Assembly: GCA_009780315.1 (NCBI GenBank)
Contig: WRAH01000004.1
Span: 62,001 to 126,000 of the forward strand
DNA length: 64,000 nucleotides
Direction: 5' to 3'
Source of the DNA: Defluviitaleaceae bacterium
GTDB lineage: Bacteria; Bacillota; Clostridia; Lachnospirales; WQUN01
Shown here: positions 11,270-37,885 of the stretch, piece by piece
Numbering within the stretch: position 1 is the first letter of the stretch
Layout: every line of letters begins with the position of its first letter
Translations under genes and position numbers: made by a program
Notes under the pieces: model-generated
What the model saw: only the letters and a program-made list of their open reading frames with translations
What the model was told of the DNA's origin: nothing
Database searches by the model: none

Positions 11270-12098
11270 TACGCCCCGTACTTTTATAAAAGAAATTTGC
11301 GCTGAAGAAGGCTATCATTTTGAAGGTTTGTCTCAAGGATATGTATTGTGCATTACAAAAGATGGTATTTCTCGTCACATTTTTGGGCCATATTGGGATT
11401 TAAACAGTGCCGCCGCAGACCGTATCGCTTGCGACAAAACCGCTTGTTCTACCTTGCTTCAAAACAATAATATTCCTGCAATTGAACATGCGCTTTTGTA
11501 TAATCCGTTATTTTTAGGTGAATGGGCGGATGAAGAAGGAGTGCTTTCACGGGCCTTACGTTACTTTGAAAAACACAACCGCAAATTAGTCATAAAACCT
11601 AACAAAGGCACAAAAGGCGAAGATGTGTACTACTGTGACACAATTCACGGGCTGGAGTGTGCCATTCAATCTATTTTTAAAATTCATCCAGACGCGGCAT
11701 TAAGTCCTTATGTAGAAATAAAAACAGAATATCGCGTGTTTTACTTAAACGGTAAATCTCACTTTGCTTATGGCAAAAAAAAAGGTAAGAGCTGGCAACA
11801 CAATCTCTCTCAAGGTGCAACAGCATTTGAGATTCCTCCAAATTCTGAACAAAATAAAAAGCGGCTTGCCGATTTAGAAAATTTAGCAGACCGTGCTGCA
11901 AAATGCATTGGTATAAACTTTGCAACCATTGATATTGCAGAGTCAACCAGTGGTGAACGCGCCATTATGGAAATAAACTCTGGCATTCAAGCCCGTCTGC
12001 TGGTTGACCAGCATCCCCATTTGCGGCATACAGTGAAAAAAATCTACAGTGCGGCTATTAAGGCAATGTTTACAGTAAAATATAATGAAATGATTTAA
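11256..12098 (+). CDS. ATP-grasp ligase-like protein
   Basis: The start ATG at 11256 follows GAAGGAA and lies within the last codons of the nth fusion, giving a 280-residue protein. It has ATP-grasp signatures: KLVIKPNKGTKGEDV (ATP-lysine and glycine-rich loop), TEYRVFYLNGK and the metal-binding end IMEINSGIQ. This pattern is closest to RimK, cyanophycin-synthetase and GshF-type enzymes, which join carboxylates to amines through an acyl phosphate. The substrate is not evident. The overlap with nth implies co-translation, but no functional link is known to me. Confidence 0.75.
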   Translation: MDINNTPRTFIKEICAEEGYHFEGLSQGYVLCITKDGISRHIFGPYWDLNSAAADRIACDKTACSTLLQNNNIPAIEHALLYNPLFLGEWADEEGVLSRALRYFEKHNRKLVIKPNKGTKGEDVYYCDTIHGLECAIQSIFKIHPDAALSPYVEIKTEYRVFYLNGKSHFAYGKKKGKSWQHNLSQGATAFEIPPNSEQNKKRLADLENLADRAAKCIGINFATIDIAESTSGERAIMEINSGIQARLLVDQHPHLRHTVKKIYSAAIKAMFTVKYNEMI

Positions 12099-12105
12099 TT
12101 ATAAT

Positions 12106-12144
12106 AAAAAAAGTGCTAGGCTTCTGGTTGCCTAGCACTTTTTT
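12106..12144. terminator. Bidirectional terminator between the ATP-grasp gene and the repressor gene
   Basis: GTGCTAGGC (12113-12121) pairs with GCCTAGCAC (12130-12138), flanked by A7 and T6 runs, so it can stop transcripts from both sides. The stop codon of the MntR-like gene (12116-12118) and its last six or seven codons lie inside the hairpin. Confidence 0.9.
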
Positions 12145-12499
12145 CATAGAAATTTTTAATGCATTCAAAAGTTGTTTCGCTTATATTATGTTCTATTTTG
12201 CAAGCATCGGCATAGGCTGTGTCTTCGTCAACGCCAATATGCATAAGTACCGCAGATAAAACAGTATGCCGCTCATGAATACGAATGGCAATTTCCGCAC
12301 CTTTTTCCGTCAGGTGAATACATCGGTCATTATCCATCGTCACATATCCATTGTCACGAAATTGTTTCATGATTATGCTAATTGTAGGTTTAGCAAAATT
12401 AAAATGATTGGCAATGTCTACAGACCTAACTCTGCTATTCTTTTTTTGAAGCACCAAAATTGCCTCTAAGTAATCTTCGGCAGATGCTTTAATTTTCAT
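12116..12499 (-). CDS. DtxR/MntR-family metal-dependent repressor
   Basis: The 127-residue protein has the DtxR/MntR form: an N-terminal winged helix (EDYLEAILVLQ, then VDIANHFNFAKPTISIIMK, about residues 8-48) followed by a helical metal-binding and dimerisation domain with conserved His and Glu residues (ERHTVLSAVLMHIGVDE, CKIEHNIS). These repressors bind DNA when loaded with Mn(II) or Fe(II). It lacks the SH3-like third domain of DtxR, as MntR does. The gene is seven bases behind the GTPase gene and is the last gene of the vWA-tubulin-GTPase operon, so it may autoregulate that operon or simply ride on it. The tail of the gene lies within the terminator hairpin. Confidence 0.88.
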   Translation of the reverse strand: MKIKASAEDYLEAILVLQKKNSRVRSVDIANHFNFAKPTISIIMKQFRDNGYVTMDNDRCIHLTEKGAEIAIRIHERHTVLSAVLMHIGVDEDTAYADACKIEHNISETTFECIKNFYEKSARQPEA

Positions 12500-12506
12500 G
12501 CTACAC

Positions 12507-13919
12507 CTACTTTCTCATAAAAAATGTAAGGATACGTCTCCAAATGGGTACATGTTTTTGTGGGGCTGCTTGTATGCTGGGATATTGTGTTTGCAATGTC
12601 TCAGCCATATGAAGTGTATACCGATTATTTTCATGTTTATATAATAACTGATTTCGCATAAGAATCCAATAAAAAGCTTCTTTAACGCGAAAAGGCTGAA
12701 GCGGGCCGTCAATATATCCTTTTTCAATGGTTTCATTGGTGATAGGGTCACTGATTTGCTCCACAGTGGGTTTTTTACCAAGACTTGATACAGCAAAACA
12801 GCTTACTACTTTAAAGCAACCTAATGCATTGTTTAAAATACCATCCTCACCAAGATAAGAAACCAGCTCACGCACCTCTTGATTAAGCCCTTTGACACTG
12901 GGCATATTCAGCGCACCTTTATGGTTTTCACCATCCAAGATATTTTGTATACGATTTTCAGGTTTATTGTCAAAAAAATCAAAGCGGGCATAACTAAATA
13001 AGTCTGACTTTGAAAGGACAAGTGCCATAGGAATGAGACTTTTTTCACGGTCAAAACCAAGAAAGTAATTATAAAGTGTATTGAAAATGCTTTGATTAGA
13101 ATTTTCTTCTGGGATAGCATCAATCAGTGCAGCATCAGAGAAGCGGAATAAATCAGATAATCGGGCAAAATTGGTAGGGTCAACAAGAAAAATCAGTCCT
13201 GATGAATCTTTAATATTAAAACCATTTTGGCGAATCCCAGAATCGTCCCGCAAATCCTCTCCTGCGATATCATAAAAAATCAAATCAATCGTATTTTCTT
13301 TTATTATACCTTCTTCATTCTTATATTGATACCAAAAGTTAAATGCATAAGGCGGAATCTTCTTACGCTTGGTTGAATTGATTAACTGATGGTCTTTTAA
13401 AAGGGGCTTTTGATATGTTTCGTAAAAATTATCACGGACATTTTTATCTCCAATAAAAGTTAATTTTGAAACAAAATCAGAATTATTCTCAAGCTCTGCA
13501 ATAAGCATAGTCAAAAACACCGACTTGCCAGAACGGGCATCACCTAAAATGGAAATAAGCAGTGTATCTCTCATACCAAAGCCAATAGGTAAATCATTAT
13601 GACAATGAGGACACAGCCGCTTTGCTGATGTTATTTTTTTGCCAGACGGGGGGTGATAGGTGATTTCATGGGCAAAGCCATATTTCCCTATGGCTTCCTG
13701 AGAAAAAGAAACTGCGTCATTGTCTGCCACCTCAACAGCTAAAAACTGCATAGATTTTTCTTTGGCTTCCTTTTTGTCTAATTGTAAAACTTCTACATAG
13801 TAATCAAATAGTTTTTCATCAAATTTCTTATCTTTTGACAGTCTAAAATCCGCTTCATGGGGATGAAAACGGTGGCAGCAAAACGGACAAATGACATAGT
13901 TTTGTTTTTTTTCAAACAT
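12507..13919 (-). CDS. Zinc-ribbon TRAFAC-like GTPase (DO-GTPase type), copy 1
   Basis: From the ATG at 13919 (after GAGGT; a TTG upstream is less likely) the protein has 470 residues. It starts with a split zinc ribbon (C11xxC14 and C103xxC106, separated by about 90 residues), then a P-loop GTPase core: GDARSGKS (126-133), switch-II-like DIAGE (217-221), SSGLIFLVDP (239-248) and SKSD (303-306) in the place of NKxD. Every one of these has a counterpart in the protein at 24008-25264, so the two are paralogues. The family resembles the DO-GTPase/TRAFAC-clade GTPases known from NTP-dependent multi-gene systems. It follows the tubulin-like gene, the 604-residue protein and a small beta-rich protein in one operon. 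GTP rather than ATP binding is inferred. Confidence 0.8.
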   Translation of the reverse strand: MFEKKQNYVICPFCCHRFHPHEADFRLSKDKKFDEKLFDYYVEVLQLDKKEAKEKSMQFLAVEVADNDAVSFSQEAIGKYGFAHEITYHPPSGKKITSAKRLCPHCHNDLPIGFGMRDTLLISILGDARSGKSVFLTMLIAELENNSDFVSKLTFIGDKNVRDNFYETYQKPLLKDHQLINSTKRKKIPPYAFNFWYQYKNEEGIIKENTIDLIFYDIAGEDLRDDSGIRQNGFNIKDSSGLIFLVDPTNFARLSDLFRFSDAALIDAIPEENSNQSIFNTLYNYFLGFDREKSLIPMALVLSKSDLFSYARFDFFDNKPENRIQNILDGENHKGALNMPSVKGLNQEVRELVSYLGEDGILNNALGCFKVVSCFAVSSLGKKPTVEQISDPITNETIEKGYIDGPLQPFRVKEAFYWILMRNQLLYKHENNRYTLHMAETLQTQYPSIQAAPQKHVPIWRRILTFFMRK

Positions 13920-13938
13920 GTATGTGTACCTCAATGTT

Positions 13939-14556
13939 TTAATGACTGCAAATATCTAAAAGATGGGTATATCCATCGTCAAGTATAAATTTTACAACAT
14001 GATTTTTCTTAATATAAAAGTGTGCTGCCCCTGCCATAACATGTGTGTCAAGGGGATACTTGCCTAATACACGTCCATTTTCATAAATTACATATTTTAA
14101 AACATGACTAATCAACGAAACTTGTGATACATCTGACGAATTTACGCGTACAGTCACTTTTTGAAACTGACTAAATAATAGAGGCTTATAAATCACTTGA
14201 GCCGTTACTTTTGTTTTTTTATAAAACCAATCTGTAACATACACAGGGCGATATGCTTCAATAAATTTATCCTCAGTAAAGTATGCAGGGCAAAGCAAAA
14301 ATCTCCGCTTCTCATCTGAAATATTTGCTGTAAACTGAGATGCTAAATCCCGTGTGATAACTTCATGGGGCTGATGTGTTAATATTTCCTGAGTCAGTGT
14401 TGGATTGTCTTGGATTTCAAATACTAACATAAGCTTTACCTTTTTATTAGACGGCCATTCCCACGTTATAATAGCCGTGTTATTGTCTTGTTTCCAATCA
14501 ATTTGTCTCAGTGCCATATGGGGGTCATTATTTTCAATTAGCCTATACTTTTTCAT
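13939..14556 (-). CDS. Small probably beta-rich protein of the tubulin/GTPase operon
   Basis: I do not recognise this 205-residue protein. It has no signal or membrane segment. The alternating hydrophobic pattern (NNTAIITWEWPSNKKVKLML, then KVTAQVIYKPLL, KVTVRVNSS) suggests a beta sandwich, perhaps two Ig- or Fn3-like domains. It overlaps the previous gene by four bases (ATGA) and sits just upstream of GTPase copy 1. The protein at 23453-24001 has the same position before GTPase copy 2, similar length and some matching landmarks (a Trp-containing early strand and a CP-hydrophobic motif, LLCPAY here and YICPF there). An adaptor for the GTPases is the natural guess. Confidence 0.7.
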   Translation of the reverse strand: MKKYRLIENNDPHMALRQIDWKQDNNTAIITWEWPSNKKVKLMLVFEIQDNPTLTQEILTHQPHEVITRDLASQFTANISDEKRRFLLCPAYFTEDKFIEAYRPVYVTDWFYKKTKVTAQVIYKPLLFSQFQKVTVRVNSSDVSQVSLISHVLKYVIYENGRVLGKYPLDTHVMAGAAHFYIKKNHVVKFILDDGYTHLLDICSH

Positions 14557-16367
14557 AATGTATAATAAAAATCCTCCACATTAAAAGAACCAGCGTGATA
14601 TAAAATGGCTACACAGTTGGCATTTGCTTTGGCAAAGAGATTCATGCGCCCAAATCCTCGTCCTTCATAATATTTTTTTACATCTTCCCCGTAAGCTTTT
14701 GGCATAAATAGATTGGCTTCAGTGTATAAACCAGTATATCCGACTTTTAAACGGACACTATAAAATTTGTTTTTTAATGCCCATTCGCCAAGTGTAACGG
14801 CTTTATTTCCACTCCCATCAAGAGCCATAAAGTCATTTAAAATGTCTTCGATAGACTGATTAAAGTGAGGCATAATGTGTTCATCTACATATTTTTCAAG
14901 ATAGATAATATAGTCACTTAATTTATTTTTGCTTAAATAAGTGGTCATTTTCTTGGAAATCTTTGCAAGTTCACTTTGGTGATTCAATGCATAGTCGTTA
15001 AATTTCTGTCTAAAATAATGTTCTGCATTTTTTGTAAACATAGAAAAAACATCTGTAAGTTGACATATATCTTTTTCATATGACTTTGCAATATCATTTA
15101 TCTTGTCAAGATAGTTTTGTAATTTGTGATGTAAGTTTTTTATGATTTCTTGATATTGTGTTGTGCCGCTTGCTTTTTCACGCAAATATTCAAGTTCTAT
15201 ACGTTTATTGATATAGACCGATGCAAGCTCATAATGCCATAAATCTTGTTTAACCAGCAAGGATAATCGTCTTTTGGCTGAATTTTTTGTGAAGTTGGGT
15301 ACTTCATTCATCCAATGCTGATGCTGTGCTTCTGCATTGCTAAGTCCATTAACTTCCATAGACTGGTTTATATTTTTAGCAAAAAATCCATCTTCACTTG
15401 TATAACGTAACAAGTCGAATAAATTATGTCCTTCAATTGATATTTTTGCTTTATTTTCAATGGGCTGTTTTATATTTTTTTGCTCATCTAATATGCTTTC
15501 CAGTCTAAGCCCAAAAAGTCTTGATATCCATTGTTGGCGTGTTAATGTATCATTACGGCTTACTTTGGGAATGGCTAAACCGTATAGATATGCTAGGCTT
15601 GGTACAGGTGCTTTTGGCATTTCGGATAGTGTTGGAATGATTCCTATTGACGACTCTGACGGCTCATGTTCAACAGGTTTATTTTTTCCATAATAGAGTA
15701 GTTCCGTGATTATCAAGGCTTTTAATGCATTTTGAGGCAATGTTAATATTGTACTTGAAGCAGTTAAAAAACATCCTTTTCCTGCTGTACAATTTTCTAA
15801 AAAAAAGAACTCATTGTATCGAGATGCATCTGGGTCTGCTGTATAAAAATCTGATTCGCAGTCTTTGAAGAGTGTCAAAAGGGCAATAGTTTGGGCAATA
15901 TCACTACTTGAAATGAGGGTGTTCATGCTTGTCAAATTTGACAACATGTAGCTTCGTTGGATTTCTTCTGCCTTTATCAATTCAACAACTTCTCTGCGAA
16001 TTTTACTATCTTCAAGAAAATTTGTATCATTTAAAAGACAATAAATATCCGTTAAAACGCCGGCAGGATAGAGGGCGTAAAGGTATTTTTCCATGGTCTT
16101 TTTAATCAGGGGCAGTTTTATTCCATGTTCATCTGTACGCAAAATATAATTGCATCGCACAATGTCGGAATTTCCTATATTTTCGCTCATCAATTCCCGC
16201 CAAATACGTTCTATTTCTGCCTTTAGCACAACCTCATTTACTTTATTTGCTATGAGAATATGCTTTGTACCTTCAACATAATGATGAAGGGTCATTGAAA
16301 GTACTGGTAAAAAATCTTCACAACCAATGAGTATAAAAATAACAGGTATGTTGACCCGACTGCTCAT
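14553..16367 (-). CDS. Unknown 604-residue partner of the tubulin-like protein
   Basis: I do not recognise the family. The protein has 604 residues with no signal or clear membrane segment. The N-terminus (IPVIFILIGCEDFLPVLSM) looks like the first strand of an alpha/beta domain but has no complete P-loop; the middle and C-terminal parts (about residues 370-540) are helix-rich with heptad-like charged stretches (IELEYLREKASG, LEKYVDEHI), and the last 70 residues are more beta-like. It overlaps both neighbours by ATGA, immediately after the tubulin-like gene, so it is translated stoichiometrically with it. A regulator, nucleator or cargo adaptor of the tubulin-like polymer is an inference only. 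Confidence 0.75.
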   Translation of the reverse strand: MSSRVNIPVIFILIGCEDFLPVLSMTLHHYVEGTKHILIANKVNEVVLKAEIERIWRELMSENIGNSDIVRCNYILRTDEHGIKLPLIKKTMEKYLYALYPAGVLTDIYCLLNDTNFLEDSKIRREVVELIKAEEIQRSYMLSNLTSMNTLISSSDIAQTIALLTLFKDCESDFYTADPDASRYNEFFFLENCTAGKGCFLTASSTILTLPQNALKALIITELLYYGKNKPVEHEPSESSIGIIPTLSEMPKAPVPSLAYLYGLAIPKVSRNDTLTRQQWISRLFGLRLESILDEQKNIKQPIENKAKISIEGHNLFDLLRYTSEDGFFAKNINQSMEVNGLSNAEAQHQHWMNEVPNFTKNSAKRRLSLLVKQDLWHYELASVYINKRIELEYLREKASGTTQYQEIIKNLHHKLQNYLDKINDIAKSYEKDICQLTDVFSMFTKNAEHYFRQKFNDYALNHQSELAKISKKMTTYLSKNKLSDYIIYLEKYVDEHIMPHFNQSIEDILNDFMALDGSGNKAVTLGEWALKNKFYSVRLKVGYTGLYTEANLFMPKAYGEDVKKYYEGRGFGRMNLFAKANANCVAILYHAGSFNVEDFYYTL

Positions 16368-19300
16368 GATAGGATTTTTTTCTCTTGAATAAATACTTCA
16401 AGCATGGTGCGGTAGAAAACTTTTTTAAGCATTCCATCGCGCTCACTGTTAAAGCTTGTGTTTAGCTGTTCAAGTTTTTCTTTGTAGATTGTAATATAAT
16501 CATCTATGATTTCAATGATTACTTTAAATTGCTCGTCAGTGAGACGATTTTCTTCTTCTTGTGCGCGTTTTTGCAAGAAGGAAGACATATCATCATCTAA
16601 ATCCACATAGGCTTGAAAAACATCGTACTCTACATATTGCTCAGTGATATTTTGTAGTGTATATAAAATTTCATGTTTATCATCTAATCTATAATGATAA
16701 GACTTTCGGCTTTTTGTAATGACCCCCATGTACATCATTTGCGCAAAATGACTGTACTTTACCTCATTGCTATCTATTTTTGCTAAGGCTTTTATAAAGT
16801 GATTGATGTCTTCCCGAAGCCTTACCTCATGGGTAACACATTCACATAAACGGGGCATGTAAATAAATACACCTTTGGCGTACTCTATATCAGGAATATT
16901 TGTTTCCGGCAAAAACTCTGTATCAAAAAGTGGGTGGGCATAGGCGGCTCGTGCTGGATTTGTTATAAATGCTTTCAATTCGTTCATTGCGGCTCGTGCT
17001 TGGGTAGCGTTGAAGGTTTTTTCGTTAATGCCTTCTTCGATATGGGCAAAATGTTCTGATAAATTTACAGGGTCGCCAACATAACCAATAAAAGAACGTG
17101 TGCGTTCATCTAATCGAATAATACCATAATCTAACCCTTGGTCAAAAAGCTCCCTGAGACGGGTGTTTTTTGTACGTTCGCGGGTATTTTCATAGTCATT
17201 TGTCCATAATTTATCATAGTTGGGGGAGGGGAGATTACGCCAATTGCGTGTAGGGCTTTCATACAAATGTAAGCCTGCAATTTTATTGAGCGATGCTTCA
17301 TATACCGTTTCATATTCTACAAGTTCTTTATAGCAGTAAAGTGCCACAGCAATTTTTAAATTTAGTGTGTAAAGTCTATTATTCATACGGCTGTATTTAA
17401 TATTTGCAGTCCGTCCAGATGATGCCATTTGCTTTGCTACACGGTGAACTTGCGGTGCGTTTGAAGGTACTGATAAATAGGCATAGGGCGGGAAGATAAT
17501 GTGCAGCCCATTTGGGATATTATTGATAGGGAACATGACTTTTGCATTTTCCTGTAAGTTGCTAAGTTTTTTGTTCATGTATTCTTCAAAACTAATTTCT
17601 TTGCTTTTTGCTATCATTAAACTGTAGTAATCAAAAGATTTGTAAACTACACTTTGGAATTGATGTGCTATAAATGCATTAAAGTTATCAACAATCTTAT
17701 GCTCATGGATTGACCAACTGGGATTTTCTATCATGTCTTTTAATAACCGTTTAAGTGATAATTTGAAATCAAGTGCCTTTGCAGCTTCATTATCTCTCAT
17801 AAAAATCTCACAAAACTCCCGCGCTTCTACGAGGTCACGAGTAAATGTGTTTTCTTTATTTTGTACATTGTCCGCATTTTTAAATTTGTCAAAGAGTTCT
17901 TTAAAAGTACTAAGCAATTCACAGTGGGTGTCAATCGTTTGTTCAAAAAAGTGATTTAACATATTTAAAATAGATTCATAAATACGGTCAATTGCGTCAT
18001 ACATAAGATTTTTTCCACAGGCATGAAAATATGCTTCACTTTTTTGAACAATGTGAGATGCAATAGATTTTTTACCTATGCTTAAAATAGTTTTATGCAA
18101 TAGTTTTGTCATGGACTCTTGGCGATTGATTTCCATTGCGGCAATATTATCCCGATGCTCCCGCTTTTGCTGAATATCACGTTTTCTAATGGTGTGAATT
18201 ATGCTGGGAAGTGATGATTCGTATAAGTCGGACAGTAGACGCATGGTATAAAATGGGCCACTGTCTAAATCGGAAAAATTTTGGCATAGTAAATTGTTTG
18301 TGTCTAGTAGCATATTTGTAAAGTCACTGATAATTTTTTCTGCTGTGGTATTGTAATGGTCACGTAGGCGGCTTAATTCACGCTTTACTGCATCTTCAAT
18401 AATTTCTGGGCGTTGTTGAAGTACGATGTGGTCATATTGCTTAAAATGTCTAGGCTTGGGTTTATCAACTGAAATAAGTTCTTCTAAAGAGGGCAAATCA
18501 ATCTTAAAAGCTTCTAAAATTTGTTGTGAATCTTCAAATGTAGGAGATTTTTCCCTGAGAGACTCTAACTCACTAAACATCTTAGATGTCAAAAAGTTAA
18601 GTAAATAATCAACAGGCAAAGACGCACTGGATGCACCCACTGCATTATATATATAATTTACTGGTTGTTTTTGCTGGTGGGTCATTAAAAAAGCTGCACG
18701 ATTATTTTCAATGTTAGAGAGGTATGAGCTTATGGTATAACTCTGTCCATCAATCACTTCTTCACTGGCAATAAAATTTATAATGATTTCAGCAGCTACG
18801 CTCATGCAATAGTTTTTTGCCGCTGGCATCAATTTACCGCTTTCATCTTTTGCACTAATAAGGTGGCAAAGGTCATATGGGGGCTCATTAGACTTAATTT
18901 CTAAATCAGCATATGTCTGCTCAAATAAGTCTCCATTACGCTCAATATTCATAAGGTAATCAAGTTCTTTTAATGCCGCAAAACCATTGGCTTTGATATT
19001 CAATGCCGCAGAGCCATCTATCATGCTGTCAGCAAGGGTGACATCAGGTAGAAATACCATGCCAATATTTTCAGCTTCAAAACCTTTTTGTTCAGCGATT
19101 TTTCTTATGATATAGGGAACATCAATGAAAATACCACTGCCTGTTCCACCGGCACATCCTGCAAGAATAAATACATATAAAAGGTCATTTGATTTACGCC
19201 CTATGGTTAGGCGGTTTATTTTTTCTGTCAACATGCTAATAACACGATGGCTATTGATTGTAAGCAGTAACCGTCCTGCTTGCCGAATGCCGCCTGCACC

Positions 19301-19723
19301 ATGTTTTACTTGCTGGAGCCGCAAGTTTCCAGCAATCCAGTTTTGGGTTGGTTCTTTGAAAACTGTGTCACGGTTTCTATAAATGGATGTTAAGTTTGAA
19401 TTATCTAAAAGCAGAAACTCATCATCGGTAAAAGATGTATTTCTATAACTTAAATTAGTCATACTGTCATCGGAGTCAATAGCCATGTATTCCACTTGGT
19501 TTGGCTTGTCTAGTTTGCGCCCACTTTCAGAAATACCTAGTTTAAACTGGCGATGGATTGCACGTTTTACACGGATTAAAGCCTCTGCACCAGTACCTCC
19601 TAGACCTATCATTAAAATAGGTTTATCAATGGTAGATGTTCGTATTTCTGGGCTGGATATACCTCCGCCGTATTCACTGTCCAGCGCGTGTAGTTCCGTC
19701 TTTATTTCTGCCGATAACTTCAT
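16364..19723 (-). CDS. Large tubulin/FtsZ-like GTPase-domain protein
   Basis: From the ATG at 19723 (AGGGG upstream, 13 bases after the vWA stop) the protein has 1119 residues. The N-terminal third is tubulin-like: a first glycine loop IGLGGTGAEAL (residues 39-49) and the tubulin/FtsZ signature AGCAGGTGSG (188-197), equivalent to the GGGTGSG/GGGTGTG T4 loop that holds the nucleotide phosphates. Such proteins correspond to the Tubulin-like (Tubulin_2) family rather than to cell-division FtsZ, which is about 400 residues. The remaining ~750 residues are mostly helical and unrecognised. It is cytosolic, with no membrane segment. Polymerisation is possible but not shown by sequence. It shares the operon with a membrane vWA protein upstream and a GTPase downstream. 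Confidence 0.85.
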   Translation of the reverse strand: MKLSAEIKTELHALDSEYGGGISSPEIRTSTIDKPILMIGLGGTGAEALIRVKRAIHRQFKLGISESGRKLDKPNQVEYMAIDSDDSMTNLSYRNTSFTDDEFLLLDNSNLTSIYRNRDTVFKEPTQNWIAGNLRLQQVKHGAGGIRQAGRLLLTINSHRVISMLTEKINRLTIGRKSNDLLYVFILAGCAGGTGSGIFIDVPYIIRKIAEQKGFEAENIGMVFLPDVTLADSMIDGSAALNIKANGFAALKELDYLMNIERNGDLFEQTYADLEIKSNEPPYDLCHLISAKDESGKLMPAAKNYCMSVAAEIIINFIASEEVIDGQSYTISSYLSNIENNRAAFLMTHQQKQPVNYIYNAVGASSASLPVDYLLNFLTSKMFSELESLREKSPTFEDSQQILEAFKIDLPSLEELISVDKPKPRHFKQYDHIVLQQRPEIIEDAVKRELSRLRDHYNTTAEKIISDFTNMLLDTNNLLCQNFSDLDSGPFYTMRLLSDLYESSLPSIIHTIRKRDIQQKREHRDNIAAMEINRQESMTKLLHKTILSIGKKSIASHIVQKSEAYFHACGKNLMYDAIDRIYESILNMLNHFFEQTIDTHCELLSTFKELFDKFKNADNVQNKENTFTRDLVEAREFCEIFMRDNEAAKALDFKLSLKRLLKDMIENPSWSIHEHKIVDNFNAFIAHQFQSVVYKSFDYYSLMIAKSKEISFEEYMNKKLSNLQENAKVMFPINNIPNGLHIIFPPYAYLSVPSNAPQVHRVAKQMASSGRTANIKYSRMNNRLYTLNLKIAVALYCYKELVEYETVYEASLNKIAGLHLYESPTRNWRNLPSPNYDKLWTNDYENTRERTKNTRLRELFDQGLDYGIIRLDERTRSFIGYVGDPVNLSEHFAHIEEGINEKTFNATQARAAMNELKAFITNPARAAYAHPLFDTEFLPETNIPDIEYAKGVFIYMPRLCECVTHEVRLREDINHFIKALAKIDSNEVKYSHFAQMMYMGVITKSRKSYHYRLDDKHEILYTLQNITEQYVEYDVFQAYVDLDDDMSSFLQKRAQEEENRLTDEQFKVIIEIIDDYITIYKEKLEQLNTSFNSERDGMLKKVFYRTMLEVFIQEKKILS

Positions 19724-19736
19724 TGATTCACAGCCC

Positions 19737-21656
19737 CTAATCTTCATATGCTCTATAAGTTGTTTCAATTTTAGCGTATTCTCCTGGAACTAAAAATACA
19801 AGTGAACACTCGCTTGCCCATAAGAACTTCTTTTTAGATTTGATATTTCCAGCATCATCTGATATTTGACACCTTGTCCCTTTGTTTATCACTTGGATGA
19901 CTGGCTGTTGTCCTTGCATACTTGGTTGAAAATAAATATCCCCAAGAGGAATGCCTGATGAAATAAATTTTTTTGACTTTTGCCCTAGACTATTATTTAA
20001 AAATTCTGTAAAAGATATTTGTCCTACAAAAGTACTTAAATCAGGGGTTTCAAGGGATGTATACTTTCCATCAGAAAGCAATGCACGAATTTCTAAATGA
20101 CCTGTAAAAATACGTTGACGCGTTTGTCTTAATGTAAATACACGAAGAAGTAACACTGCAATAACCAAAGCCATAGCAACGCCAATGAGTATAAAAACTA
20201 TGGAATTTATACCTGAGTCAATTGGATAGACCAATGGCACAGGTGTTATTTCTGGTGTGGGTGCTTCCATCGGCTCGGGTGTTAGGTCAATTGCTTCTTC
20301 TGATTCAGCTGTCAAAGCTTCAAGCATGGCTGGGTCATAATTGATTGTCAAAAAGGTTGTTGTTTGCTCGAATCCAGAGTGGGTTACACGAATACTTATG
20401 CGTACATCTTGCATTGGAGTGGGAATAAAATCTAGTGAAAATATTGCGCCGTCATGATACATCTGGAGTGTTTCAATAAGGTTCATGTCCATGTCATAAA
20501 CAAATAATTCTGCCACTGCCTCGTCAAAAATTGCACCCATTTGTTGAGGGGGCAAATCTGCTTGAAACATAGCTTGTACAATAATAGGATTTGAAGGATT
20601 AAACAGTGGGCTGGTGTTTCCTGGTTGTTCGATATTTGCCCATACACTCACGTTATAGTTGTAAATTAGGTTTACTGTAATGCGGTCTTCAGGCAAGCCT
20701 TGGACGCTTAATAGCCACTCGCCTATCATAGGCTCTAGTACTTTAATCATAGAGTATCGGTTGGCATAAGTAAGGGTATATGCTTCTCCATCAAAAAAGA
20801 CTTCTTGTCCTGATGGGTCAAAAAGGCGTACATTTGTGATGGGGCGTGACGAAAGCATGATAATATTCGCTTCAGAAACAAAAGCACTGGGTATGGGAAT
20901 GAGTACATCTGTATAAGTTTCACCATCAGCTACAATGGTGGCTATTTCAGTAATTGACGAACGAATATGACTTGCAAAAATTTCATTGAAAATTTGAGGC
21001 AATGATGCGGCTTCATCTGCAATATAATATCTTGCACCTGTACGATTCGCTATATTTTGTAAAAATTCAATATGCAATGTGCCATCATGATTAAGCCCAA
21101 TGGTATAAATAGGGGCTATATTGCCAACAGCGTTTATTGCCCATTCTGCGTCTTCATAGGAAATTTCTATATTACGCCCATGCCAGCCATGGGGAATATC
21201 AATTCTGCCGTCGGTAAACAAGATAATCATAGGACTGTTTCCAGAGATAGGGTCATTTAAAATCATTTCAGCCGCAGTATGCAAAGCAAGACCAATATCT
21301 GTCCAGCCATGGTATACAAAGCGGTTAATGGTTTGGCGAATATCGTCTCTTATCGCAGGGTCATTGATGGGTGTTAATGGCATGACCGTGTGTAAAGTGC
21401 CTGAAAACCCAACAATGCCAATACGCGAATTGCGCGTTTCCATCATATTCATAAACAAAGTGGCTGCTTCAAGTGCAATACGTTCTGGGTCTGCTGTACG
21501 CATTGACCCACTGGTGTCAATGACTAAAATAACATCTATGCCTTCATTGGGTTCAATGGTCAAAGGGTCTGCATAGATTTGATTTGCAGAAATAGTTGTG
21601 AAAATGAAAACGGAAATCAATAGCAACCATTGTAAAACCCATTGCTTTTTAATCAT
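19737..21656 (-). CDS. Membrane-anchored vWA-domain protein, first gene of the operon
   Basis: The ATG at 21656 follows AAAGGAG; the protein has 639 residues. A signal peptide (WVLQWLLLISVFIFTTIS) is followed by a vWA domain (about 38-230) with an intact MIDAS: DTSGSMR, the Thr in GWTDIG, and LFTDGR. Then come beta-rich segments, an acidic Pro/Glu linker, a single membrane helix (about 484-508) and a ~130-residue C-terminal part that should be cytosolic. The tail may be FHA-like, judged only from its predicted strands. The topology puts a metal-dependent ligand-binding domain outside and a small beta domain inside, next to the tubulin-like and GTPase proteins encoded just downstream. A shorter relative is encoded at 36920-37885. 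Confidence 0.88.
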   Translation of the reverse strand: MIKKQWVLQWLLLISVFIFTTISANQIYADPLTIEPNEGIDVILVIDTSGSMRTADPERIALEAATLFMNMMETRNSRIGIVGFSGTLHTVMPLTPINDPAIRDDIRQTINRFVYHGWTDIGLALHTAAEMILNDPISGNSPMIILFTDGRIDIPHGWHGRNIEISYEDAEWAINAVGNIAPIYTIGLNHDGTLHIEFLQNIANRTGARYYIADEAASLPQIFNEIFASHIRSSITEIATIVADGETYTDVLIPIPSAFVSEANIIMLSSRPITNVRLFDPSGQEVFFDGEAYTLTYANRYSMIKVLEPMIGEWLLSVQGLPEDRITVNLIYNYNVSVWANIEQPGNTSPLFNPSNPIIVQAMFQADLPPQQMGAIFDEAVAELFVYDMDMNLIETLQMYHDGAIFSLDFIPTPMQDVRISIRVTHSGFEQTTTFLTINYDPAMLEALTAESEEAIDLTPEPMEAPTPEITPVPLVYPIDSGINSIVFILIGVAMALVIAVLLLRVFTLRQTRQRIFTGHLEIRALLSDGKYTSLETPDLSTFVGQISFTEFLNNSLGQKSKKFISSGIPLGDIYFQPSMQGQQPVIQVINKGTRCQISDDAGNIKSKKKFLWASECSLVFLVPGEYAKIETTYRAYED

Positions 21657-21719
21657 CAACCATCGTCTCCTTTAAGGTTTATCATAAATATATGCAAATA
21701 TTCCAAATTTACCTAAATC

Positions 21720-21748
21720 ATTTTAATATGTTTCTAAGGCTTTGTCTA
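21720..21748 (-). promoter_or_regulatory. Sigma-A-type promoter of the vWA-tubulin-GTPase operon
   Basis: On the minus strand TAGACA (complement of 21743-21748) and TAAAAT (complement of 21720-21725) are separated by exactly 17 bases; each box matches consensus at five of six positions. They lie about 65 bases before the start codon of the vWA gene. Confidence 0.65.
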
Positions 21749-21769
21749 GGTGTTTTCTTTGATTTTTTC

Positions 21770-21796
21770 TTGACAATCCGTCTTAAAATGTATAAA
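21770..21796 (+). promoter_or_regulatory. Probable promoter of asnS
   Basis: A perfect TTGACA (21770-21775) is followed by TATAAA at 21791-21796 (15-base spacer) or TAAAGT at 21793-21798 (17-base spacer). The start codon is at 21859. I see no T-box specifier or antiterminator structure in the short leader. Confidence 0.55.
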
Positions 21797-23452: not shown

Positions 23453-24001
23453 GTGGGACATATAAAATGCCGCGAAACAGGCGAAAATATCTGCTTAACA
23501 TTTAACTGGCAAAGTGGAATTGAGCAGGTCTACATCTTTGTTGTACAAGGCAATTGTAATAATTTTGATGTGAATAAAACCAGTTTATCTGACGGTAGAT
23601 TATTTACACTTCAAGAATATAAAAAACGGGGGGGCTGTGTAATTCCCAAAAAGCCAGGGGTTTTTACATATTATATTTGCCCGTTCCTGCGAGAAAATGT
23701 TGATGATATTTTTGCTGATGAACAAATGCAAATAACACATACAAGCCGTATAAATATTGATTTTGTCATTCAGGAGAAAATCAGACGGCATAAAATTTAT
23801 GAAATTAGCATCGTTGCAGACTATCCTGTGGCGCGGGGTGTCTTAAAATATATAAAAGAACCAATAGGTGTGGAGTATACTTTTAGCGAGATTTCTGAAA
23901 AAAATCAACCGATTACATGGATTGTGCGGACTGAAATGAATGAAAATTTAAAATTATTTATAGATGAAGCATTTGTTGATTTATACAATTTAAGGGGTTA
24001 A
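23453..24001 (+). CDS. Small probably beta-rich protein, first gene of the second GTPase operon
   Basis: I do not recognise this 182-residue protein. It starts with GTG at 23453 after GAGG. It has no signal peptide or membrane helix; the pattern (GENICLTFNWQSGIEQVYIF, VFTYYICPFL, RINIDFVIQ) suggests beta strands. It lies six bases upstream of GTPase copy 2, just as the 205-residue protein at 13939-14556 lies upstream of GTPase copy 1, and the two may be diverged copies of one adaptor. Confidence 0.65.
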   Translation: MGHIKCRETGENICLTFNWQSGIEQVYIFVVQGNCNNFDVNKTSLSDGRLFTLQEYKKRGGCVIPKKPGVFTYYICPFLRENVDDIFADEQMQITHTSRINIDFVIQEKIRRHKIYEISIVADYPVARGVLKYIKEPIGVEYTFSEISEKNQPITWIVRTEMNENLKLFIDEAFVDLYNLRG

Positions 24002-24007
24002 ATAAAT

Positions 24008-25264
24008 ATGGGATTATTTTGGCGTAAAAAAGCCGCAGTAGAGCAGGAAAAAATGGATAAGACCCACGAAATAGTATGTTTACACTGCTTTAGAAACTTC
24101 ACATCTGACAGGGTAATGTTTAGAGCATTAGAAAGCCTTGATGTAGAAGGATATCGAGCGCAATATGATCAAATTTTAGATGACTACCGCACCCGTTTTC
24201 ATATGGACACCGCAGGGGAATTGCCCGTTGCCCTAGACCCAGATGAATTTGGTGAAGCAAACAAGGGGTATCATCGTGGTATTTTATCATCTTTGAAAGA
24301 TGATTATGGTAATCTCACTACGCGGCGGATTTGTCCATTTTGCCACAATGAATTGCCTCAAAGTGCAGGATTTGCGCCAAGTACGATTATTTCTGTAGTA
24401 GGGGCATCTCAGTCTGGCAAGTCTGTATATCTTACCAGTCTCATTCACACATTAAAAACAGTGACACCACGTAATTTCCCTATTTTTTGTACGCCAATTA
24501 ACAATGAAATGGGGCGGAAGTTTAAGTATGAATATGAAGACCCTCTCATTGAAAACGGAATGCTTCTTGACCCTACACAAAAGGAAAAGCAACAAGAGCC
24601 TTTTATTTTCACATTTTCATTTTCTGATGAAACTAAGCCTGAGATAAATATTGCGTTTTTTGATGTTGCCGGTGAAGGTATGATTGACACAGGTTATATG
24701 GATATTTATGCATCCCATATTCGTAATTCTTCAGGTATTTTATTTTTGGTTGACCCCTTACAATTTCGTTCTATTGGACGGAAAATTTTGCTTAAAAATA
24801 ATCTAAACTATGAACTCAGATTTGCTGATGAACCTACAGAAGTGCTTAGTGGCTTAGTGGAAGATTATATTTATAAGCAGGGTGGGGGCGTTTCTAATAT
24901 TCCTACTGGGATTGTGCTTACTAAAACAGATTTACTGGAAGCCTTATGTGATAGTGGTGAATATATAAAGGCAGAGAGTCACTTTTTTCAGAATTACACA
25001 CATAGTGGATTTTTTAATATGTCTGAGTTTTATCATATTGATGGTGAAGTAGACGGATTTATTGCAGATATAGACCCGAATTTTCGTAATGCACTGAAAC
25101 GTCGTTTTTCTAATCTTGGATTTTTTGCTGTGTCTGCCCTTGGGACACAACCTGAAGGACAGAGGGTAGCGTCATTTACGCCAATACGTGTAGATGAGCC
25201 GTTTCTGTGGCTTCTCCATCAGCTTGGGTATATTGATGGCGGAACATCTCCGAAATATTCATGA
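24008..25264 (+). CDS. Zinc-ribbon TRAFAC-like GTPase (DO-GTPase type), copy 2
   Basis: The 418-residue protein repeats the plan of copy 1: split zinc ribbon (C24xxC27 and C109xxC112), P-loop GASQSGKS (132-139), DVAGE (219-223), SSGILFLVDP (241-250) and TKTD (305-308). The ~80 residues between the zinc knuckles are rich in charged residues. It is probably a soluble, nucleotide-switch protein. Upstream is a small beta-rich protein and downstream, overlapping by four bases, a GAP1-like protein; that pairing is what leads me to the DO-GTPase/GAP1 type of system. It diverges enough from copy 1 to suggest that the two have separate roles. Confidence 0.82.
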   Translation: MGLFWRKKAAVEQEKMDKTHEIVCLHCFRNFTSDRVMFRALESLDVEGYRAQYDQILDDYRTRFHMDTAGELPVALDPDEFGEANKGYHRGILSSLKDDYGNLTTRRICPFCHNELPQSAGFAPSTIISVVGASQSGKSVYLTSLIHTLKTVTPRNFPIFCTPINNEMGRKFKYEYEDPLIENGMLLDPTQKEKQQEPFIFTFSFSDETKPEINIAFFDVAGEGMIDTGYMDIYASHIRNSSGILFLVDPLQFRSIGRKILLKNNLNYELRFADEPTEVLSGLVEDYIYKQGGGVSNIPTGIVLTKTDLLEALCDSGEYIKAESHFFQNYTHSGFFNMSEFYHIDGEVDGFIADIDPNFRNALKRRFSNLGFFAVSALGTQPEGQRVASFTPIRVDEPFLWLLHQLGYIDGGTSPKYS

Positions 25265-26394
25265 TAGAGCAACAGTTTTATACACGGGAAAGACGGGGGC
25301 TTTTTCGTCATTCAGAAGGGTATGACAGTATTGCTAAGTCAGAAGGGCTAACAGATAGTTTTGTGAAAGAAAAAATACATCCATATTGTACTTATACGCC
25401 GCCTGTATCAAAATCATTGACCCTTGTAAATTATTCATGTGGACGGATGTTATTTGGACAATCTGCTTATGTTCCTTCTGATTTTACTGGGCAAAGGTCT
25501 ACTTTTTTTTCTCATAATTATGTGATTCCCCCAGAAAGTATTTCAGCATTGTTAGGTGATATACATTGTTTATTGTCAACACGATTTGAAGTTGATTATG
25601 ATATCATACAAGGCAAAGTATTGAAAAATTTGGATGCTTTGCCTCGTGGAGATTCGTTTATGAAGCTAATCGTAAATGAAAGCACAATGACGAAGACAAT
25701 AGAATGTATTTGCTTATCTATCAATCGTGCCAAAAAGACTTATGTTGTTGTTCCTGTGAATACGGACAAAATGCATGATTATGTATGTAATTTCCTTGTT
25801 ACACTGTATCAGCGATTACCCGAGGCAATTAAACACCAATTAGGCTTTTGTACCTTTGCCCGTGAACTTGATAAAAGGAAGGGAGTTCATCTAGTATTTC
25901 TAGAATCAAAAACCGCTCGCATAGGGGATTTACGCTTTGATGGGGATTTTTTAGTACATATTAACAGTGATTTTGAAAATAATAATTTTGAAGATACTTG
26001 TCATGGTGATATATCTGCGTATTTATATCAGCGAATTTTAGATACAAAGATTGAGCAATTTTTCACTGAAGTCGGTTTTTGGCGTGTACGTTTGCCATTT
26101 TGCTGTGATATAATCAATACAGCAGCACATGATTGGTTAAATAAAAATTTAGATAAGCTTACTATTGCTCAAATTATGGCGATTCCTATACAATTTATTA
26201 AACATGGTTTAAGTGGCGAAATACCTTCAATTTATATCATACTTTCTATTTTAAAGTATATTGTTACAGCACCAAGTCAGCATATTGACATGAAGTATCT
26301 TTTAGGAAGCTACTTTTTAAGTTCTGCAAATTATGATAGAATTGTGAAAAATTTGTATCGTCTTGGCATAGGTAGCATGAAAGGAATTGATTAA
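25261..26394 (+). CDS. GAP1-like GTPase-associated protein
   Basis: The 377-residue protein begins MIEQQFYTRERRGLFRHSEG and continues with GLTDSF, FTGQRSTFFSHNYVIP. To my knowledge this is the pattern of the N-terminal domain of GTPase-associated protein 1 (GAP1-N2 type), which in other Firmicutes starts with a QQxYTRER motif. Those proteins are often longer, with middle and C-terminal domains; here only about 110 residues follow the recognisable part, with no membrane segment, so it may be a short version. The ATG overlaps the stop of GTPase copy 2 (ATGA) and the stop abuts the next start, indicating tight co-expression. Whether it activates GTP hydrolysis is unknown despite the name. Confidence 0.7.
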   Translation: MIEQQFYTRERRGLFRHSEGYDSIAKSEGLTDSFVKEKIHPYCTYTPPVSKSLTLVNYSCGRMLFGQSAYVPSDFTGQRSTFFSHNYVIPPESISALLGDIHCLLSTRFEVDYDIIQGKVLKNLDALPRGDSFMKLIVNESTMTKTIECICLSINRAKKTYVVVPVNTDKMHDYVCNFLVTLYQRLPEAIKHQLGFCTFARELDKRKGVHLVFLESKTARIGDLRFDGDFLVHINSDFENNNFEDTCHGDISAYLYQRILDTKIEQFFTEVGFWRVRLPFCCDIINTAAHDWLNKNLDKLTIAQIMAIPIQFIKHGLSGEIPSIYIILSILKYIVTAPSQHIDMKYLLGSYFLSSANYDRIVKNLYRLGIGSMKGID

Positions 26395-27270
26395 ATGGGT
26401 ATAGTACAATCAACTTTTGACTGGGTAGGAGAACTTTATACAAGATTATTTGCCGATTGGCTTCATATTCATTTTTTAATTCGTACAGTTTTATTGCTTT
26501 TAATTTTATGGCTTATTATTTTTTTAGCAGCCCAGGTTTTTAGATACGTACTTCTGCCGCTGGGTATGATGTTCTATTATCATGTTATTTTTCGCCTATG
26601 GAATTACTTATTTATTGAAACACCGCAGGAGTGGTTGTATTTGCGGTATCACTCAAAGGACAAGCCATACAATGTAGATTTATACGCTGGGCTTTGCGAT
26701 AAAGTCAAAAAAAATCGTACAATTTTGTTACATGCTAAATTTAATGGAATGGTTGTTCGCACAAGACGTTTTGCAAATCAGTTAATGATGATTTGCCTTA
26801 TAGCAATTACACTTTGGGTTTCGGCATTTGGTTTACATCAAGAATATGCTGCACCAACATTATTAATCATTGATGATAGTATGCAATCTCAAGAAGATTT
26901 ATATGAGGAAGAAGCTGACTATGAATACGGCATATGGGGTATCCATTATGATGAAGTGTCTGATGTGGAATCTAATGCTGATGAATATGCTATGTATACT
27001 GCTGGTATCATTAACCCTGCTGAATGGGTAACTGGCTCAAATATAATCTTAACATTAACCGAGTACGGAATCCAAGGTGCAAGAATACGTAATGGCGCAG
27101 GTATTGCAGGGAATACAGTCATAGAAATGCTTTGGGAAGATGCCGAATTAGTTTATTTACATGTGTTTGATCCTGATGAATATGTAAGCAATTTATATTG
27201 GTTATGGGTTCGCACCCCAAGTGGTACAGAAGGGTATATTAGTAGTCAATTGGTTGAAGTTTTAGGATAA
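26395..27270 (+). CDS. Three-pass membrane protein with a C-terminal SH3b-like domain
   Basis: The 291-residue protein has two adjacent membrane helices (about residues 28-50 and 52-70), a basic loop (KKNRTILLHAK, VVRTRRFANQ), and a third helix (about 128-148). The positive-inside rule puts the basic loop in the cytoplasm and the C-terminus outside. There an acidic, Tyr-rich linker is followed by a domain (about 215-291, ARIRNGAGIAGNTVIEML, then WVRTPSGTEGYISSQLVEV) with the form of bacterial SH3b domains, which often bind peptidoglycan. It starts directly after the GAP1-like stop and closes the operon, so it could tether the GTPase system to the envelope. Confidence 0.78.
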   Translation: MGIVQSTFDWVGELYTRLFADWLHIHFLIRTVLLLLILWLIIFLAAQVFRYVLLPLGMMFYYHVIFRLWNYLFIETPQEWLYLRYHSKDKPYNVDLYAGLCDKVKKNRTILLHAKFNGMVVRTRRFANQLMMICLIAITLWVSAFGLHQEYAAPTLLIIDDSMQSQEDLYEEEADYEYGIWGIHYDEVSDVESNADEYAMYTAGIINPAEWVTGSNIILTLTEYGIQGARIRNGAGIAGNTVIEMLWEDAELVYLHVFDPDEYVSNLYWLWVRTPSGTEGYISSQLVEVLG

Positions 27271-27307
27271 AAAAACCGTGTGAAAGATTTTTCACACGGT
27301 TTTTTTT
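27270..27307. terminator. Shared terminator between the second GTPase operon and the ATP synthase operon
   Basis: AAAAAACCGTGTGAAA and TTTCACACGGTTTTTT form a long stem with a 4-base loop. A and T runs on both sides let it act on both converging operons. Confidence 0.92.
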
Positions 27308-36442: not shown

Positions 36443-36471
36443 AGTGTGCATATTTGAAAGAGGTGTTTGAA

Positions 36472-36945
36472 ATGTTCTTCAAAAAGTCCAATGCCACCAC
36501 CCATGACTTAGACACACCAAATACAGTGATTGGTAAGGGAATGTATTTGGAATCGGCGCGGCTTTCTGGTCATGAATCCGTTAGAATTGATGGCATTTAC
36601 AAAGGTCAAATAGACATAGAGGGTTCTCTTGTACTTGGTGATGAAGGTTCTGTCACAGGTGATATTCGTGCAAATTATTTTCTTGTTGCAGGAGAAGTGG
36701 TTGGAAACATCTACTGCACTTCACAATTACATTTCGCTTCAACAGCCAAAGTTTTTGGTGATGTACAATCACCTTCTTTGATTGTGGATGAAGGTGCCCA
36801 AGTGTCAGGAAAATATACCATCACCAAACCCAATGAAATTTCAGAATCCACGTCAACCCTTGCAAATATGCAAGAAGAACGACCAAGACTTATTGATAAT
36901 AAAGAGAGCAATGTGACCGATGAGCAAACCATGTGGACAGATTAA
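36472..36945 (+). CDS. Bactofilin
   Basis: The 157-residue protein is a single bactofilin domain: an N-terminal tail (FFKKSNATTHD), then repeated beta-helix turns (TVIGKGMYLESARLSG, VRIDGIYKGQIDIEG, SVTGDIRANYFLVAGEVVGN). Bactofilins form nucleotide-free, membrane-associated filaments that position wall or envelope proteins. The ATG at 36472 follows AAAGAGGTG; a TTG at 36454 precedes that site. Its end overlaps the following vWA gene by 26 bases, an arrangement that ties expression of filament and membrane protein together. Confidence 0.92.
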   Translation: MFFKKSNATTHDLDTPNTVIGKGMYLESARLSGHESVRIDGIYKGQIDIEGSLVLGDEGSVTGDIRANYFLVAGEVVGNIYCTSQLHFASTAKVFGDVQSPSLIVDEGAQVSGKYTITKPNEISESTSTLANMQEERPRLIDNKESNVTDEQTMWTD

Positions 36946-37885
36946 AAATTTTATAATATGGCTAACCGTACTGGCTTTAGCTGTGATTTTTTCTGCTGTA
37001 GTTTTTGCACAAGCGTATCCAGAAGATGATGTTTTAACAGTGTTGTTGCCCCCCATTGATGTCGTTTTGCTTATTGATGTAAGCGGTTCTATGCGTTTTA
37101 CTGACCCTAATCGTGCCGCGCTTTCTGGTGCGGGGGATTTTATTGAAATGTTAACGATTGGGCAATCACGGGTTGGTGTTGTTGGGTTTTCTGGGCAAAT
37201 ACAATATTACTTACCCTTCCGTTTACTGGAAGATGAGTATGCTGTGGCAGAATTGCGCGAAGAAATCACACAATTTCAGTATGTGGGCTTTACTGATATT
37301 GGTGCTGCCCTTTTAGCTGCCGCAGAAACAATGTATACTGCGGAAAATTTGCAAAATCCGATGATTCTTCTCATGTCAGATGGATGGATTCAAATAAGCC
37401 CTCATGTGGCACGAAGGGCTGAAGATTCTTTTGCAGATGTGGAAATTGCTTTGGATATTTTAGAAAGAAACATTCCCGTATACACTGTTGGGCTACAAAA
37501 CCCTCATGGTGGTGTAGATGAAGCACTTTTAGAAATGATTGCAGTACGAAGCAATGCCCACGCTCAATTTACACAGGATGCAGATGAGCTTCCTTCGATT
37601 TTTATTTCTATTTTGGAAGCCCATGCCGCAACAATTCCTGAGCCAGAACCAGAAATTGATGAACCAGAAGCCATTGAAATTGAAGAAGTGCCAGAATATG
37701 AAGAAGCATATGCGTATGTGTTGTATGAGGCATATGAATACGAGATGCTTGATGAATATGAACCACTAGAAGATTATGAGCCGATTCAAGAGCGTAGTAA
37801 TGTTTTGTATGTAGTAGCAATTTTCACAGGCTTGTTGGCAGCAATAAGCACAACAAGATTGATTAGAGCGGTGATTATGAAATAA
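36920..37885 (+). CDS. Membrane vWA-domain protein coupled to bactofilin
   Basis: The 321-residue protein has an N-terminal signal/anchor (FIIWLTVLALAVIFSAVVFAQ), a vWA domain with intact MIDAS (DVSGSMR, FTDIG, LMSDGW), a strongly acidic Tyr/Glu-rich linker (about residues 240-290) and a C-terminal membrane helix (VLYVVAIFTGLLAAI). It lacks the cytosolic tail domain of the vWA protein at 19737-21656 but shares its vWA core closely: both read D-x-SGSMR, then G-(I/V)-VGFSG, then TDIG-x-AL. The start ATG lies inside the bactofilin gene. A surface protein positioned by bactofilin filaments is the likely reading. Confidence 0.88.
   Translation: MSKPCGQIKNFIIWLTVLALAVIFSAVVFAQAYPEDDVLTVLLPPIDVVLLIDVSGSMRFTDPNRAALSGAGDFIEMLTIGQSRVGVVGFSGQIQYYLPFRLLEDEYAVAELREEITQFQYVGFTDIGAALLAAAETMYTAENLQNPMILLMSDGWIQISPHVARRAEDSFADVEIALDILERNIPVYTVGLQNPHGGVDEALLEMIAVRSNAHAQFTQDADELPSIFISILEAHAATIPEPEPEIDEPEAIEIEEVPEYEEAYAYVLYEAYEYEMLDEYEPLEDYEPIQERSNVLYVVAIFTGLLAAISTTRLIRAVIMK

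Follow-up and report, generated by a model that had tools for sequence, protein, structure and literature searches.

The window, i.e., the whole stretch of 64,000 nucleotides that was analysed, carries two operons separated by asnS (Table 1). Operon A lies on the minus strand in the order vWA, TUB1, P604, P205, DOG1 and an MntR-like gene, and all six of the packed open reading frames listed in a preliminary description of this DNA are present. With the TUB1 start placed at the internal ATG used in its homologues, a gap of 13 nucleotides separates vWA from TUB1; TUB1/P604 and P604/P205 overlap by ATGA, and P205-DOG1 and DOG1-MntR-like are separated by 4 and 7 nucleotides, respectively. Operon B, composed of p182, DOG2, GAP1 and p291 on the plus strand (positions 23453 to 27270), lies beyond asnS and outside the region covered by the preliminary description. 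It was found by a profile search for GAP1-N2 (PF20013), which gave a match at position 25261 of the window, and it is the key to the identity of operon A.

Table 1. Features of operons A and B, in window coordinates
Feature	Position	Strand	Basis
Operon A intrinsic terminator	12098..12142	-	Fold of -20.3 kcal/mol, z -7.27, then T run
MntR/DtxR-family regulator	12116..12499	-	PF02742, 6e-15; PF01325, 9e-9
DOG1, DO-GTPase2 with N-terminal zinc-ribbon Cys pairs	12507..13934	-	PF19993, E 1e-7
P205, predicted tandem FNIII-fold protein, 205 aa	13939..14556	-	Predicted model with Foldseek/VIA-align
P604, predicted pseudo-tubulin, 604 aa	14553..16367	-	AlphaFold2 model with VIA-align fold comparison
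TUB1, Tubulin_2/FtsZl1 family	16364..19768 (homologues' start: internal ATG, 19723)	-	PF13809, E 1.5e-61
vWA protein	19737..21659 (alternative start 21656)	-	PF13519, 5e-16; PF00092, 1e-15
Operon A promoter (probable), TAGACA-17-TAAAAT	21720..21748	-	10/12-match pair recurring in homologous loci
p182, second FNIII-like component	23453..24001	+	hhalign with the P205 family
DOG2, second DO-GTPase2 (GASQSGKS, DVAGE, TKTD)	24008..25264	+	PF19993, 1.2e-6
GAP1, GAP1-N2 and GAP1-M	25261..26394	+	PF20013, 8.4e-29; PF20014, 3.4e-7
p291, membrane protein	26395..27270	+	TM scan: two hydrophobic segments
Operon B terminator	27269..27306	+	17-pair stem with T tail

The single terminator proposed for the end of operon A is strong and is followed by a T run. 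The sigma-A promoter proposed upstream of vWA is a more mixed case: in a local scan its hexamers do no better than chance (44 sites against an expectation of 46), but a -35/-10 pair matching at 10 of 12 positions with 17-nucleotide spacing recurs in 8 of the 10 homologous loci compared, 61 to 113 bases ahead of the vWA gene, mostly as TAGACA followed by TAnAAT-type boxes. Because of this recurrence, the operon A promoter is probably real. Upstream of it, at about 21765 to 21780 on the minus strand, stands the block TTGTCAAnAAAAA, which is shared with locus L048, also upstream of vWA; it is conserved between both genomes of the genus and is a possible regulator site.

The MIDAS motif of the vWA protein (DTSGS) is intact. 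A transmembrane scan gives a signal or transmembrane segment at residues ~7 to 25 and a transmembrane segment at ~487 to 505, which places the vWA domain outside the cell and leaves a cytoplasmic tail of ~135 residues. TUB1 carries a PF13809 domain with the GGTG(S/T/G)G loop typical of Tubulin_2 proteins; the loop reads GGTGSG, intact as the preliminary description had it, and is kept in 14 of 14 aligned TUB proteins. By sequence, the Tubulin_2 profile matched no solved structure, and a search of viral contigs returned no TUB relatives.

The P-loop of the DOG1 GTPase, likewise described as intact, reads GDARSGKS and is accompanied by a Walker B motif with glutamate (DIAGE) and by SKSD, with CPxC pairs at residues 16 and 108; an alignment of 13 homologues also underlies the assignment of DOG1 as a zinc-ribbon DO-GTPase. 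DOG1 and DOG2 are related (hhalign, 100%, E = 7e-41), and both have the traits of TRAFAC-type DO-GTPases, i.e., CPxC/CxHC pairs, GxxxxGKS, D[IV]AGE and [ST]KxD, with PF19993 scores over the cut-off. The GAP1 gene directly follows DOG2 and lies 3.6 kb from operon A, which holds no GAP1 gene of its own. The GAP1 protein is short, with no match to GAP1-C, and the typical extension was not detected. The C-terminus of p291 is weakly SH3-like (SH3_3, E = 0.1, below the cut-off).

P604 and P205 have no family in Pfam, NCBIfam, PADLOC or PHROGs. The preliminary description called P205 a beta-rich protein; its identity can be recognised from its predicted fold. The P205 model (pLDDT 87) finds mostly tandem FNIII proteins as its best Foldseek matches (E = 2e-5) and aligns to tandem FNIII with a Z-score of ~9 in VIA-align; a Pfam sequence search found no FNIII match. 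P205 is thus predicted to be a tandem FNIII protein, and p182 is related to the P205 family by hhalign (E = 8e-7 and 1.8e-8).

P604, listed earlier as an unknown protein, has a fold that is predicted to be that of tubulin. The AlphaFold2 model, which is of moderate confidence (pLDDT 75, pTM 0.55), takes the alternating strand-helix order of the tubulin N domain, S1-H1 to S6-H7, followed by an insert with a long helix or coiled coil (residues 377 to 440) and then by C-terminal strands. In VIA-align, run on Foldseek candidates, the model superposes on tubulin/CetZ with a Z-score of 17.2 (259 aligned residues, rmsd 3.5), and all 50 of the 50 matches listed belong to the tubulin superfamily (Z = 15.7 to 17.2, 251 to 271 aligned residues), with aligned ranges extending to the C-terminal strands at residues 600 to 604. 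Foldseek alone is weak, with a best E of 0.04 and none below 0.001, and has FtsZ entries among its top matches. By sequence, hhalign gives no signal between P604 and TUB; the resemblance is seen by fold comparison only. A profile search of the PDB returned only weak matches, of which most fell on coiled coils or other helical regions, and a structure search of BFVD found nothing convincing. The S4-T4-H4 site of P604 is without the glycine loop (e.g., CLLNDTNFLEDS), and a loop of the form G[GS]TG[GSA]G occurs in 0 of 15 members. From the tubulin-fold model and this missing loop, P604 is predicted to be a pseudo-tubulin, i.e., a protein with the fold of tubulin in which the GTP-binding loop has been lost. 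Two other assignments were rejected: P604 is not GAP1 (hhalign probability 0.2; the actual GAP1 lies across asnS), and a match to PF10589 (NADH_4Fe-4S, E = 0.017) in a single member is attributed to chance similarity within the helical part.

Conservation was followed in Defluviitaleaceae metagenome-assembled genomes, whose isolate names we take to denote termite-gut samples. The exact order vWA-TUB1-P604-P205-DOG1 is found in 15 of 38 genomes of the family, in five genera, a count that includes a few loci in which an end gene is cut by a contig edge. The comparison of gene order in related Clostridia that the preliminary description called for therefore comes out in its favour, and so does its view of a dedicated multi-gene machine that combines a nucleotide-dependent tubulin-family protein with a switch GTPase and with a vWA protein that faces outward. 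P604 was not found outside the family in a search of 295 genomes of the order. GAP1-N2 is present in 15 of 15 genomes with P604, compared with 7 of 23 without it (Fisher p = 2e-5, in a test that ignores kinship). In most relatives the contig that carries operon A is not the one that carries operon B, and the case for their joint action therefore rests on this co-occurrence. In the window asnS adjoins both operons; it adjoins operon A in genome G030 and operon B, with three genes between, in G028. These positions suggest an older linkage of the two operons. Within the genus, identity is 55% for P604 and 64% for P205, whereas TUB1 and DOG1 reach 77-78% and AsnS 88%; that P604 and P205 evolve faster than the tubulin and the DO-GTPase fits recognition parts.

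The origin of the two-operon layout is illuminated by relatives in which the components form a single cluster. Loci L119 and L129 carry vWA-TUB2-X-vWA2-FNIII-like-DOG2-GAP1, and L130 has the same order from TUB2 onward; the genomes concerned are G005, from the same family, and G062 and G203, from the same order. In G005 p291 follows GAP1, and in G203 the stretch examined does not reach the vWA gene. TUB1 and TUB2 form two separate clades with 99-100% support. X is related to P604 by profile (E = 4.7e-10, with more X sequences added), and the G-G-T-G loop is found in 0 of 3 X proteins. In a profile matrix of eleven families, clear relations are confined to P604, X and T2dn (encoded after TUB2 in three relatives), P205 and p182, and DOG1 and DOG2; the remaining pairs are negative, and even the highest of them, X against TUB, has a probability of 9.5%. 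In the genome studied here, TUB2 stands alone on contig C44 (L003:5757-9140), and a predicted pseudo-tubulin of the X type (493 aa) stands alone on contig C8 (L179:6617-8098). Sixteen of the 38 genomes have X, and nearly all of these have TUB2 as well; X is the apparent partner type of TUB2. The multi-TM vWA2 protein is present in all three single-cluster loci; in our genome no orthologue with strong support was found, the matches being generic vWA matches (one at 36920 to 37885). On the reading that fits best, the tubulin half of the system was duplicated to give operon A, which has its own DO-GTPase and FNIII gene and no GAP1.

Several further arrangements were observed around these families. 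On C44, TUB2 is divergent from a gene that reads, from its sequence, as N-acetylmuramoyl-L-alanine amidase-like. A bactofilin gene overlaps a vWA-protein gene in the window (36454 to 37885, plus strand), and this vWA protein has an N-terminal signal and a C-terminal transmembrane segment; it is a possible cytoskeleton/vWA pair, and its vWA protein is a candidate for vWA2. Genome G018 has TUB2 with no DO-GTPase2 or GAP1-N2 match. A third type of vWA-Tubulin_2 pair, at L080:4319-9934 and L081:4491-10283 (G022, G019), is ~26% identical to TUB2 and falls outside the TUB1 and TUB2 clades. In G037 (L070:4474-13674) a vWA gene is followed by two tandem Tubulin_2 genes, and no GAP1-N2 match was found in that genome.

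The preliminary description held that the full set matches no characterised pathway. This is not supported: the set corresponds to two computational predictions, and the hallmark GAP1 is encoded just across asnS. Kaur et al. 2020 (PMC7159879) predicted "double-GTPase" systems with GAP1-N2, for which they argue conflict with intruders. The firmicute tubulin theme outlined there comprises a DO-GTPase, GAP1-N2, an FNIII protein, two tubulin genes with a C-terminal coiled coil and two vWA genes, one of which encodes several transmembrane helices and an extracellular vWA domain. Our genome shares with this theme the paired zinc-ribbon DO-GTPase paralogues, GAP1-N2/M, an FNIII protein, tubulin-domain proteins, an exported vWA protein and a TM-type membrane partner, and the relatives at L119 and L129 carry the set as one cluster. 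The two coiled-coil tubulin genes of the theme would correspond to TUB1, by Pfam, and P604, by its predicted fold and the helix at 377 to 440; the main text of Kaur et al. does not show whether their second tubulin is equivalent to P604 or X. In contrast to the theme as outlined, the cluster falls into two parts on either side of asnS, a second tubulin and a second pseudo-tubulin are dispersed, GAP1 is short with C domain and extension undetected, no convincing multi-TM vWA2 was found in the genome, and operon A has its own DO-GTPase and no GAP1.

The FtsZl1/vWA/GTPase operons of Makarova and Koonin 2010 (PMC2875224), for which membrane remodelling was predicted, are alike in the N-terminal FtsZ-like domain with an intact T4 glycine loop in a protein of ~1100 aa, in a vWA protein with MIDAS, and in a diverged GTPase with a Cys-rich domain. 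Unlike them, our system has a tubulin-fold partner without a GTP loop, an FNIII protein and GAP1, none of which is reported in the available text of that paper, and it lacks at its own locus the OmpA and protein kinase genes described there. α/β-Tubulin and other two-tubulin systems offer an analogy only, in that two tubulin-fold subunits are encoded together, one with the glycine loop; in P604, however, the loop is lost altogether and a large helical insert is present, and its pairing with TUB1 is our proposal. Our literature search found no experiment on members of the GAP1-N2/tubulin class and no functional study of a whole system. The sole Tubulin_2 protein with mutant data that it returned is Sll0445 of Synechocystis: when sll0445 is disrupted, phototaxis is impaired, and Sll0445 fractionates together with proteins of pilus assembly (PMC9880817).

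Sequence establishes what the components are, how their genes are ordered, that they co-occur and which of them carry signals of membrane topology. Operon A is, we think, probably one half of a duplicated and split GAP1-N2/DO-GTPase/tubulin system that flanks asnS. The system is most likely an envelope-tethered, GTPase-gated tubulin assembly that would act in stress or conflict. The zinc-ribbon DO-GTPases DOG1 and DOG2 would form a paired switch with GAP1 as its readout, and the FNIII proteins, together with the extracellular vWA domain, may detect a signal from a peptide, the envelope or an intruder. Once switching has occurred, TUB1 in its GTP-bound state and the loop-less P604 would assemble into a membrane-tethered filament or scaffold, held by the cytoplasmic tails of the vWA protein and p291, and the output would be an envelope or stress response of the conflict type. 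A stricter form of this model, in which TUB1-P604 and TUB2-X are obligate active/pseudo-tubulin heteropolymers, each with one subunit without a GTP site, gated by DO-GTPase and GAP1 and anchored at the envelope, is put forward only tentatively.

The same parts could instead serve a constitutive envelope machine for membrane remodelling, motility, shape or wall, in which a tubulin-pair scaffold is anchored by the vWA protein and p291 and conflict plays no role. The prediction for the FtsZl1 operons and the phototaxis and pilus data on Sll0445 speak for such a machine, as do the vertical-looking TUB1 clade, the strict gene order, the absence of viral copies and a PADLOC search that gave only generic winged-helix matches to MntR; the operon is, however, patchy in genus g12 (7 of 10 genomes), and its FNIII and pseudo-tubulin parts evolve fast, both unusual for a core shape machine. 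We regard this reading as rather unlikely. It is less probable still that P604 is only a Rossmann-like or coiled-coil adaptor whose tubulin match reflects generic α/β resemblance. Its lack of tubulin similarity by Pfam, PDB profile search and hhalign, with no Foldseek E below 0.001, would suit an adaptor, but the exclusively tubulin-superfamily matches in the VIA-align list, which reach the C-terminal end, and the S1-H1 to S6-H7 order argue against it.

The preliminary description also counted a metal-dependent repressor as part of the system, from which a metal-homeostasis machine could be read. The MntR-like gene does adjoin DOG1 here, and it also adjoins the operon in G030 and G024, standing after DOG1 in both genomes of the genus (G030 included) and before vWA in G024. 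These 3 of 15 genomes are all, and beside the other 12 operons MntR is absent; its orthologues (63-75% identity) occupy unlinked sites with no common neighbour, as judged by the size and strand of the neighbours. The gene that begins 1-3 bases after DOG1 in G012, G013, G023 and G024 encodes an identified hybrid histidine kinase in two of these genomes and a homologue of it in the other two (such kinases stand at L054:1947-3596 and, with Hpt, at L060:12802-15840). Because MntR occurs in so few operons and histidine kinases occur in others, the regulator slot is variable, and MntR is accessory and not core. As the locus also has no transporter or metal-binding core gene, a metal-homeostasis machine is highly improbable.

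Operon A is real and conserved. It represents a new variant, split and duplicated, of a system that is known from computation and is uncharacterised. Tubulin/GTPase operons have been predicted twice, in 2010 and 2020, and the most useful new point is a cryptic tubulin without a GTP loop, by predicted fold, encoded beside an active one. As a loop-less tubulin, P604 would give the active tubulin a testable partner, and the split layout, in which tubulin, pseudo-tubulin, FNIII protein and DO-GTPase are paired and GAP1 is unpaired, narrows the likely switch logic.
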